Positions 2,929-24,835 of a stretch of DNA of 31,652 bases are shown in pieces. Numbering within the stretch: the stretch's first letter is position 1; each line of letters opens with the position of its first letter. Where the stretch lies: NCBI GenBank assembly GCA_023269935.1, contig JAGDXC010000007.1:1-31652 (forward strand), written 5' to 3'. The position numbers and the translations under genes were made by a program. The notes beneath the pieces were generated by a model. It was not told where the DNA came from, searched no databases, and saw only the letters and a program-made list of their open reading frames with translations. Origin of the DNA: Thermocladium sp. GTDB taxonomy: Archaea > Thermoproteota > Thermoprotei > Thermoproteales > Thermocladiaceae.

Positions 2929-3013
2929 TGCGGGGGGTGGGATTTGAACCCACGCAGGCCTACGCCAACGGGACCTAAACCCGCCCCCTTTGACCATGCT
3001 CGGGTACCCCCGC
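2929..3013 (-). tRNA. tRNA-Leu(UAG)
   Basis: The minus strand folds as a class II tRNA. The acceptor GCGGGGG (3013-3007) pairs with CCCCCGC (2936-2930) and the discriminator is A2929. The T arm is GTGGG-TTCAAAT-CCCAC. The anticodon stem GCGGG/CCCGT encloses the loop TTTAGGT, giving anticodon UAG. A long variable arm is present, as expected for leucine. CCA is not encoded and no intron is needed. A TATA-like box at 3037-3046 lies about 28 bases upstream of the 5' end, and an A/T run at 2904-2912 (T-run on the transcript) may end transcription. Confidence 0.95.
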
Positions 3014-3319: not shown

Positions 3320-3429
3320 GATTATCGTTAATATTCCTTAAATGCGAGTCACTTTGTTTTCAGGACAAGGTTTTTAGCTCCTCCCCCTTGAACCCTTGAG
3401 CTGATTATGGCTGAATTCTCTAGGATAAA

Positions 3430-3440
3430 AAATAAAAATA
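3430..3440 (+). promoter_or_regulatory. TATA-like promoter of the tRNA-Pro-like gene
   Basis: An A-rich TATA-like box centred about 26 bases before position 3462, the first base of the tRNA-like acceptor stem. It suggests the fragment is transcribed from its own promoter. Confidence 0.45.
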
Positions 3441-3461
3441 CACGAGGCAATGCTTGATCGG

Positions 3462-3518
3462 GGGGCCGTAGTCTAGCTTGGTTAGGGGGTTCAACCCGAC
3501 TAAGACGCACGGCTCGGG
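3462..3518 (+). tRNA. tRNA-Pro(CGG)-like 5' half with a D-loop insertion; no 3' half seen
   Basis: The sequence follows tRNA positions 1-37 exactly if about 18 bases are removed. The acceptor GGGGCCG is 3462-3468, T8-A9 are 3469-3470, the D stem GTCT (3471-3474) pairs with AGAC (3503-3506), and the D loop AGCTTGGTTA holds G18-G19. The insertion at about 3485-3502 contains a GGG...CCC hairpin and splits position 21/22, like a non-canonical archaeal intron. Base 26 is G3507, the stem is CACGG (3508-3512), and the loop CTCGGG has anticodon CGG at 3515-3517. After G37 the expected partner CCGTG, a T arm and CGGCCCC are not found downstream or anywhere nearby. Instead a GC-rich segment follows, including GGCGGG (3526-3531) pairing with CCCGCC (3558-3563). 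This resembles the 5' half of a split tRNA. A tRNA with several introns that I failed to parse, or a broken tRNA, are alternatives. Confidence 0.55.
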
Positions 3519-3549
3519 CCTACATGGCGGGAACTGGGCAGCTGCTCCA

Positions 3550-4041
3550 CTAGAATCCCCGCCCCTCATCTACATTGACATCAATCTCCTCGCTGAGTGA
3601 CTTAATCATTTCTTTCTCCTCCATGGTTATTCCCATAACCTCCATATCCACTAACATCCTGGCTAACTCAACTGCTATGTCCCGTATTGATACTATGCCC
3701 TCAAGGAAACCATTTTCATCCACCACCGGTAGATGCCGTATTTGATGCTTAGCCATGATGTGGACTGCCTTTAGAATGCTGGCATCCCTTGTTATGGTTA
3801 TTGGGGATCTAGTCATTACTGACCCAACCTTAAGTGACTGAAGAGAATCAGGACTGGAATTAACTGCCTTAACTATATCTCTCTCAGTAAGTATGCCTAT
3901 GGGAGTCTCAGTCTCATCAGTAACCAACACGACACTTATTTTATTTTCCATCATTAACTTCACGGCAAGCAATAGAGAATCAGACTCACTTGCGGTGACG
4001 GTTATTTCACGCATTACATCACTGACTCGAGATAACTCCAC
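3550..4041 (-). CDS. CBS-pair domain protein
   Basis: Two CBS domains fill the protein: DVMREITVTASESDSLLLA to TPIGILTERDIV (about residues 6-60) and SVMTRSPITITRDASILKA to GIVSIRDIAVELA (about 70-130). They are followed by a short acidic tail. Stand-alone CBS pairs bind adenine nucleotides and sense energy state; the partner is not known here. I place the start at GTG 4041 because a TATA-like box (4061-4069) lies 25 bases upstream; TTG at 4050 would add three residues. The 3' end overlaps the GC-rich segment after the tRNA-Pro-like sequence on the other strand. Confidence 0.85.
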   Translation of the reverse strand: MELSRVSDVMREITVTASESDSLLLAVKLMMENKISVVLVTDETETPIGILTERDIVKAVNSSPDSLQSLKVGSVMTRSPITITRDASILKAVHIMAKHQIRHLPVVDENGFLEGIVSIRDIAVELARMLVDMEVMGITMEEKEMIKSLSEEIDVNVDEGRGF

Positions 4042-4327
4042 ATATTTCAATAATAATAGTTATTTTTAATCTTTTCTAGAACCATTTTTCTCTGCTGGGA
4101 CTAATGCCCAATGCTCTCCATCGCTTATCTCCCATCTAAATTATCTCCATTGCCTTGCCCACTTTATAACTAAAGTTCATACTTTCTAGGAAGTCATAAA
4201 TGGATTGGAGATGCCACTAGTTATATAATCATAGGGATGCAAGGCATTAACTCAAGCATAAGGTGAATCATGGGAAGCTATTTGCTGCAGCTGAAAGTAT
4301 CTAATTAATTATCTCCATTAGTAATAA

Positions 4328-24723: not shown

Positions 24724-24835
24724 GGGCCCGTAGCTCAGCATGGTAGAGCGGCGGTCCTGGTTAATCGGGAGGCCGAGGCTTTTAACCTATGGGGAAGACA
24801 CCCGTAGGCCGTGGGTTCAAATCCCACCGGGCCCG
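24724..24835 (+). tRNA. tRNA-Lys(UUU) with two introns
   Basis: The acceptor GGGCCCG (24724-24730) pairs with CGGGCCC (24828-24834) and the discriminator is G24835. The D arm is GCTC...GAGC and the T arm GTGGG-TTCAAAT-CCCAC (24811-24827). The loop CTTTTAA (24779-24785) gives anticodon UUU. To form the stem GCGGG/CCCGT two segments must be removed: about 24755-24777 (23 bases, position 30/31) and about 24786-24800 (15 bases, position 38/39); exact splice points may shift by one or two bases. Multiple introns at non-canonical positions are a hallmark of Thermoproteales. CCA is not encoded. Confidence 0.93.

Follow-up and report, generated by a model that had tools for sequence, protein, structure and literature searches.

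A predicted split tRNA-Pro in Thermocladium with cis introns in both halves and one 3' half for two isoacceptors

Introduction

Split tRNAs and shared 3' halves are already known. In the excerpts of the open-access literature that name them, split tRNAs comprise tRNA-His, tRNA-Glu, and tRNA-Lys(CUU) of N. equitans, tRNA-Gly, tRNA-Ala, and tRNA-Glu of C. maquilingensis, and tRNA-Asp(GUC) and tRNA-Lys(CUU) of Desulfurococcales (PMC4033280, PMC3218864, PMC4390854, PMC3978253, PMC11782384, PMC8450103, PMC10714607, PMC4090602). The total for N. equitans is given as six, which these excerpts name only in part, and no tRNA-Pro is among the split tRNAs that they do name.

Several of these systems resemble the locus described below. 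In N. equitans, split tRNA-Glu(UUC) and tRNA-Glu(CUC) are also built from two 5' halves and one 3' half with a complementary tail and leader, but the host is a tiny symbiont, the amino acid is a different one, and the passage concerned does not mention cis introns in the halves (PMC4090602). The split and tri-split tRNA-Gly, tRNA-Ala, and tRNA-Glu of C. maquilingensis are described from a related host, with pieces common to isoacceptors and splits mostly at 37/38 (PMC4090602); these isoacceptors are contiguous in Thermocladium modestius, with Gly (GCC, TCC, CCC), Ala (CGC, TGC), and Glu (TTC) genes at L143, L144, L149, L152, L153, and L154. Another split tRNA is likewise divided at 37/38 and has a bulge-helix-bulge followed by a 14-bp G+C-rich stem, although its halves are adjacent on the genome and the passage describing it mentions neither a shared 3' half nor added cis introns (PMC3218864). 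The tRNA-Pro(UGG) of Pyrobaculum islandicum is reported with three cis introns in the D-arm, at 37/38, and in the T-arm (25/26, canonical, and 56/57), yet as one contiguous gene without trans-splicing (PMC4090602). The permuted tRNAs of Thermofilum pendens with a canonical intron are rearranged genes that also need ordinary intron removal, described as one permuted transcript rather than two separate halves (PMC3218864).

Here, we analyze a stretch of 31,652 nucleotides from Thermocladium sp. (GenBank assembly GCA_023269935.1, contig JAGDXC010000007.1, positions 1 to 31,652 of the forward strand), referred to as the window, and compare it with 25 genomes of the family. Three of these belong to Thermocladium: T. 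modestius JCM 10088 (G001), Thermocladium sp. UBA166 (G002), and a third and closer draft, G013, with 86-88% DNA identity over the compared stretch. What is apparently new is proline as a split tRNA, the genus Thermocladium, and cis introns in both halves together with a shared 3' half; a nested junction possibly adds to these. Excerpts of the open-access literature contained no split tRNA with cis introns in both halves and no nested trans/cis junction, and 'split tRNA' does not occur together with 'Thermocladium' in open-access full texts.

The 5' Half Gene

Direct reading of positions 3462-3518 gives nucleotides 1-37 of tRNA-Pro(CGG) once an 18-nt insertion in the D-arm is removed. The order is GGGGCCG (3462-3468), TA, D-stem GTCT, D-loop AGCTTGGTTA, the insertion, and GACG-CACGG-CT-CGG-G to 3518. 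The parts of the locus and its neighbors are as follows (slashes between bases mark predicted cut sites).

2929 to 3013, minus strand: complete tRNA-Leu, upstream of the 5' half.
3423 to 3438, plus strand: TATA-like element GGATAAAAAATAAAAA, a putative promoter that lies about 30 nt before nt 1; identical in all four aligned sequences, with variable neighboring bases.
3462 to 3485, plus strand: exon a of the tRNA-Pro(CGG) 5' half, nt 1-22, with acceptor GGGGCCG, TA, D-stem, and D-loop; read directly, invariant in all four sequences.
3486 to 3503, plus strand: D-arm cis intron of 18 nt at position 22/23, with a bulge-helix-bulge; the boundary slides by 1-2 nt.
3504 to 3518, plus strand: exon b of the 5' half, nt 23-37, with D-stem, G26, anticodon stem CACGG, and loop CTCGGG; read directly, anticodon CGG at 3515-3517.
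3519 to 3533, plus strand: 15-nt segment, a putative nested cis intron at 37/38 whose removal would come after trans-splicing.
3523 to 3534, plus strand: 5' strand of the putative trans bulge-helix-bulge, with CATGG (3523-3527), CGGG (3528-3531), and bulge AA/C (3532-3534).
3535 to 3548, plus strand: tail TGGGCAGCTGCTCC, predicted to hybridize with the 3'-half leader, as judged by pairing with the G013 leader.
3550 to 4050, minus strand: CBS-domain protein gene, named by reading, running towards the 5' half.

An earlier note on this DNA had described the same nt 1-37 with anticodon CGG ending at 37/38, and our reading agrees. Its extra 18-nt insertion in the D-loop also stands, with a changed placement: boundaries at 3485-3502 are possible but gave no good bulge-helix-bulge by hand, and 3486-3503 is preferred because it fits a bulge-helix-bulge and yields the GGTTAGGAC D-arm of contiguous relatives. 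The end that the note gave to the feature, 3563, lies too far downstream, where the sequence from 3550 onwards is the stop and C-terminal codons of the CBS-domain gene on the opposite strand.

Neither ARAGORN nor Rfam reported a tRNA at this site, and an Rfam search of 3400-3700 at a permissive E-value was also empty; both ARAGORN and the Rfam tRNA model thus overlook the split tRNA-Pro(CGG), as they do the split tRNA-Pro(TGG) described below. A sequence descriptor for the 5' half of an archaeal tRNA-Pro, composed after the site had already been seen, matched only at 3462 (four overlapping starts, one site) and had no match in 200 first-order Markov resamples. The 3' end pattern TTCRA-N7-CGGCCCC has no match on either strand of the 31.6-kb window, in line with the note's remark that the partner pieces are missing downstream. 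Taken with the comparisons below, the sequence indicates that 3462-3549 very probably encodes the 5' half of a tRNA-Pro(CGG) that is split and assembled by trans-splicing.

Elsewhere in the window, 24724-24835 gives a full-length Rfam tRNA match over 112 nt that ARAGORN does not list; this tRNA probably holds one or more introns.

Conservation and Genomic Setting

The 88 bases 3462-3549 are 99, 97, and 96% identical in the three Thermocladium genomes. Some match to the 5'-half query occurs in 22 of the 25 family genomes, and the full 88 bases occur in only three, the Thermocladium genomes. The aligned blocks that include the 5' half are 86-88% identical in G013 and 75-76% in L001/L002, figures from which the tRNA-Leu is exempt (97 and 88%). 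In an alignment of the four sequences, 3462-3542 is invariant except for two bases, one in the loop of the D-arm intron and one at 3522. That loop varies between species, G013 reading N and UBA166 having an extra A nearby, and the tail differs at 3543-3544.

The 5' half is flanked by the CBS-domain gene on one side and by a small ORF and then the tRNA-Leu on the other, and L001, L002, and L036 share this arrangement of CBS gene, 5' half, and tRNA-Leu. A neighboring gene, named by reading as V-ATPase subunit I, is 77% identical to that of UBA166 and 73% identical to that of T. modestius.

The 3' Half in Sister Genomes

A search for the T arm followed by CGGCCCC returned two exact sites each in T. 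modestius and UBA166. In both genomes one site is a complete tRNA-Pro(GGG) gene with an intron at 37/38, and the other is a 3' half holding GGAGTTAGCTGCCCA-CCCGAT-C-CCGTG-AGGTC, which is also present in G013. By the earlier note's prediction, a 3' half should contain CCGTG, a T arm, and CGGCCCC and follow a complement of about 3519-3550; one such gene was found in each Thermocladium genome, and its leader pairs with 3535-3548. Near full-length 3' halves occur once in each of the three Thermocladium genomes (95-100% identity) and in none of the other 22; some match to the 3'-half query is found in all 25, since the query includes the T arm. Each 3' half has, by eye, an A+T-rich element upstream. 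The two halves of tRNA-Pro(CGG) stand at separate loci, on different contigs in T. modestius, UBA166, and the G013 draft. We infer that the window's own genome carries a 3' half; the nearest one seen lies in the sister genome about 86-88% identical in DNA.

Exact tRNA-Pro 5' ends and exact 3' ends stand at 3:2 in T. modestius, 3:2 in UBA166, and 2:1 in G013. The tRNA-Pro(GGG) gene is absent from the G013 draft, presumably through an assembly gap. A complete tRNA-Pro(CGG) was found by pattern and similarity search in none of the three Thermocladium genomes; these are draft assemblies (G002 has 1.3 Mb), and the absence is strong but not absolute. T. modestius has 41 Rfam tRNA matches, and the one Pro gene that ARAGORN names has anticodon GGG; at three of the 41 (L171, L174, L177) ARAGORN names nothing, and no Pro anticodon arm is visible by eye. 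A 3' half without a complete tRNA-Pro(CGG) gene means that both cis and trans splicing would be needed, as the note had anticipated from the 5' half with its D-arm intron.

Other candidate pieces were discarded. The leader core GCTGCCCACCCG recurs exactly in G001 (C23) and G013 (C84) with no tRNA part after it, two GGGGCCGTGG starts (L178, L179) have, by eye, no tRNA after them, and a whole-genome listing of GGCTCGGG was uninformative, the motif being too short. Two fragments were seen in passing. L177 (G001:C44:10191-10235) is a 45-nt tRNA match below the cut-off, a 3' part with loop CACTTAA and acceptor CGGGCCC and with no recognizable 5' part; it is a fragment or perhaps another half. L060 (G015:C6:89780-89810) is a tRNA 3' part ending in CGGCCCC with an apparent long intron in the T-arm, from a genome in which the 5'-half query has no match.

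Two other readings of the locus can be weighed against these data. The site holds only half a tRNA, and partial tRNA fragments are on record in archaea (PMC3218864), so the 5' half might be a dead fragment, left for example when a mobile element inserted itself into a tRNA gene. This is very improbable, given the near-invariance over four species, promoter and tail included, the presence in all three searchable genomes of a 3' half that matches and has a complementary leader, and the lack of any other CGG gene in them. Still less credit can be given to several cis introns within a single contiguous or permuted gene. Thermoproteales do stand out for tRNA genes with multiple introns (PMC4033280), and the contiguous CGG genes of relatives have none, one, or two introns, but the 3' part is on neither strand of the window, which removes both a contiguous gene with a long intron and, with nothing just upstream of the 5' part, a permuted one. 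In T. modestius, moreover, the halves lie on different contigs and the 3' half has its own A+T-rich element.

A Probable Shared 3' Half for Two Isoacceptors

All three Thermocladium genomes also encode a second 5' half, whose anticodon is TGG. The tail of this half, TGGGCAGCTAACTCC in T. modestius and UBA166, complements the leader exactly in those two genomes, and the G013 tail pairs with wobbles; in T. modestius and UBA166 the TGG half lies on the same contig as the 3' half, about 46-47 kb away. The leader GGAGTTAGCTGCCCA forms 15 bp without a bulge with the TGG tails and 14-16 bp with one bulge with the CGG tails. Pairing between tail and leader amounts to -24 to -31 kcal/mol, and at most 1 in 5000 shuffled leaders was as stable; for the window tail 3535-3548 against the G013 leader it was none of 5000.

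Joined in silico, all seven combinations (four CGG, three TGG) were recognized by ARAGORN as tRNA-Pro with the expected anticodon, the window 5' half with a sister 3' half being called tRNA-Pro(cgg). A single 3' half thus appears to be common to the CGG and TGG 5' halves, so that three genes would supply two isoacceptors; we hold this with high confidence as part of the split reading as a whole.

Predicted Cis Introns in Both Halves

A cis intron was recognized by a 4-bp helix between two 3-nt bulges, each cut after its second base. The D-arm intron has the central helix GGTT:GACT with two wobbles, bulges AG/G and AA/G, and inner helix GGGT:ACCC. The 3' half has an intron at 52/53 in the T-arm, 22-23 nt long (26 nt as assembled in T. 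modestius), with TCCC:GGGA, bulges GG/T and AG/G, and a 5-bp inner helix. With boundaries chosen by us, the 4-bp central helix forms in all four D-arm versions of the Thermocladium type, where CGG has two wobbles, and in both T-arm versions.

In the T. modestius JCM 10088 assembly, G/C homopolymers are seemingly inflated, with runs of about 7 against 4 in the sisters (L002, L006, L008, L078). Such inflation would change intron lengths and put reading frames out of register. Another T. modestius tRNA with loop CTGAC (L174, G001:C41:11360-11540; also L009), by eye a tRNA-Val GAC, carries an intron nearly identical to the T-arm intron of the Pro 3' half, and matches to the 3' half at 90-91% lie on G002:C14, G013:C4, and G001:C41. 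On these similarities, the T-arm intron looks as if it has been copied between tRNAs.

The Junction of the Two Halves

In the proposed pathway, the 5' half would be transcribed from its own promoter and its tail would pair with the leader of the 3'-half RNA, a transcript of its own. Once paired, the junction would be cut by the tRNA splicing endonuclease and the pieces would be ligated, the D-arm intron of the 5' half and the T-arm intron of the 3' half being removed in cis. More tentatively, two steps are proposed at the junction. Trans-splicing would first link C38 to the 5' half at 3533/3534 and leave a 15-nt remnant, giving a joined intermediate that would read CTCGGG-CCTGCATGGCGGGAA-CCCGTG. 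The new AA/C junction would complete a second bulge-helix-bulge, and removal of the remnant would produce the mature CTCGGGC.

The best trans motif for CGG pairs CATGG-CGGG-AA/C-TGGGCAGC on the 5' side with GCTGCCCA-CCCG-AT/C-CCGTG on the 3' side; it lies 15 nt beyond nt 37 and is fully paired in all four CGG halves. The second motif, in the joined RNA, is CACGG-CTCG-GG/C...CGGG-AA/C-CCGTG, with the 4-bp helix CTCG:CGGG and the anticodon stem CACGG:CCGTG. Both 4-bp helices are in register in four of four CGG halves, as against 0.12-0.19% of linker plus leader shuffles for two CGG variants; the motifs in the shuffle tests were noticed first and tested afterwards. The TGG halves have 18- and 20-nt equivalents of the 15-nt segment. 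In all seven halves, the base at position 34 (C or T) has a pairing partner in the remnant (G or A), and the cis pairing holds throughout, CTTG pairing in the TGG halves with CAGG (T. modestius, UBA166) or CGGG (G013). The trans helix is complete in five of the seven, with an A.C mismatch in CAGG:CCCG of the T. modestius and UBA166 TGG halves; only two of the five outer trans pairs are kept in all three TGG halves, of which one has the full central trans helix and none the full outer helix.

The folds are mixed as well. Without constraints at 37 C, nt 33-36 or 33-37 lie against the leader in all four pairs tested, and at 75 C they still do so in two (UBA166 CGG and TGG); the minimum-energy fold at this higher temperature is the trans motif for the window CGG and G013 TGG pairs and not for UBA166 CGG or TGG. 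In none of four ligated intermediates was the second bulge-helix-bulge the minimum-energy fold.

The endonuclease might instead act in a single step on a three-way junction, cutting the 5' half at G37/C and the 3' half at AT/C38, so that the 15-nt segment leaves with the tail. The GG/C site would then sit in a 3-nt bulge beside CTCG:CGGG or CTTG:CAGG, the pairing kept in every half, and the mismatched trans helices of two halves speak in the same direction. In the constrained folds, the trans form loses to the three-way form for UBA166 TGG at both temperatures (at 37 C, -40.0 for three-way vs -37.4 and -38.1 kcal/mol for two trans bulge-helix-bulge forms). It is nevertheless favored by 3.5-5.4 kcal/mol for window CGG, UBA166 CGG, and G013 TGG, the anticodon stem being taken as the outer helix in the last. 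Single-step cutting would also place the 3' cut outside any bulge-helix-bulge and leave the leader CCCG and the exact AA/C and AT/C spacing without a role. In view of these mixed pairing and folding results, the two-step junction, trans and then cis at 37/38, is put at about an even chance, and single-step cutting is regarded as possible though somewhat doubtful. The complete scheme is held just short of even: four splicing events from two RNAs (D-arm cis, T-arm cis, trans, then cis at the same 37/38 site), in which trans ligation would create the final 3' splice site, the split would fall within the inner of two nested introns, and a single 3' half would feed two isoacceptors.

The splicing-endonuclease family PF01974 has two matches in G001 and two in G013, of which the second scores below the cut-off of the family in both, and one in the smaller G002 assembly. 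Two endonuclease-like genes would fit an alpha-beta enzyme, a type linked to relaxed motifs in the relevant part of PMC4090602.

Relatives, Origin, and Significance

A contiguous tRNA-Pro(CGG) gene is present in 15 of the 25 family genomes, with a D-arm intron in ten of them and none in five, by eye. This census covers the family genomes except G008, G009, G012, G015, G019, G024, and G025, drops L069, which reads TGG, and counts the G003 gene, identical to L039. Contiguous Pro(CGG) and Pro(TGG) genes were both observed in G003, which we take to be C. maquilingensis. By eye, the Caldivirga-type contiguous Pro(TGG) and Pro(CGG) genes (L075, L085, L048, L049) contain a long intron close to 37/38; it has a strong hairpin and is similar from one isoacceptor to the other.

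As most of the relatives examined have contiguous genes, many with a D-arm intron, the tRNA-Pro split looks derived within Thermocladium. It also looks independent of the Gly, Ala, and Glu splits of Caldivirga. Split tRNAs bear on the question of whether tRNA genes originated as halves or came apart late, and the order of splicing proposed here would be testable in T. modestius, which has the culture-collection number JCM 10088.
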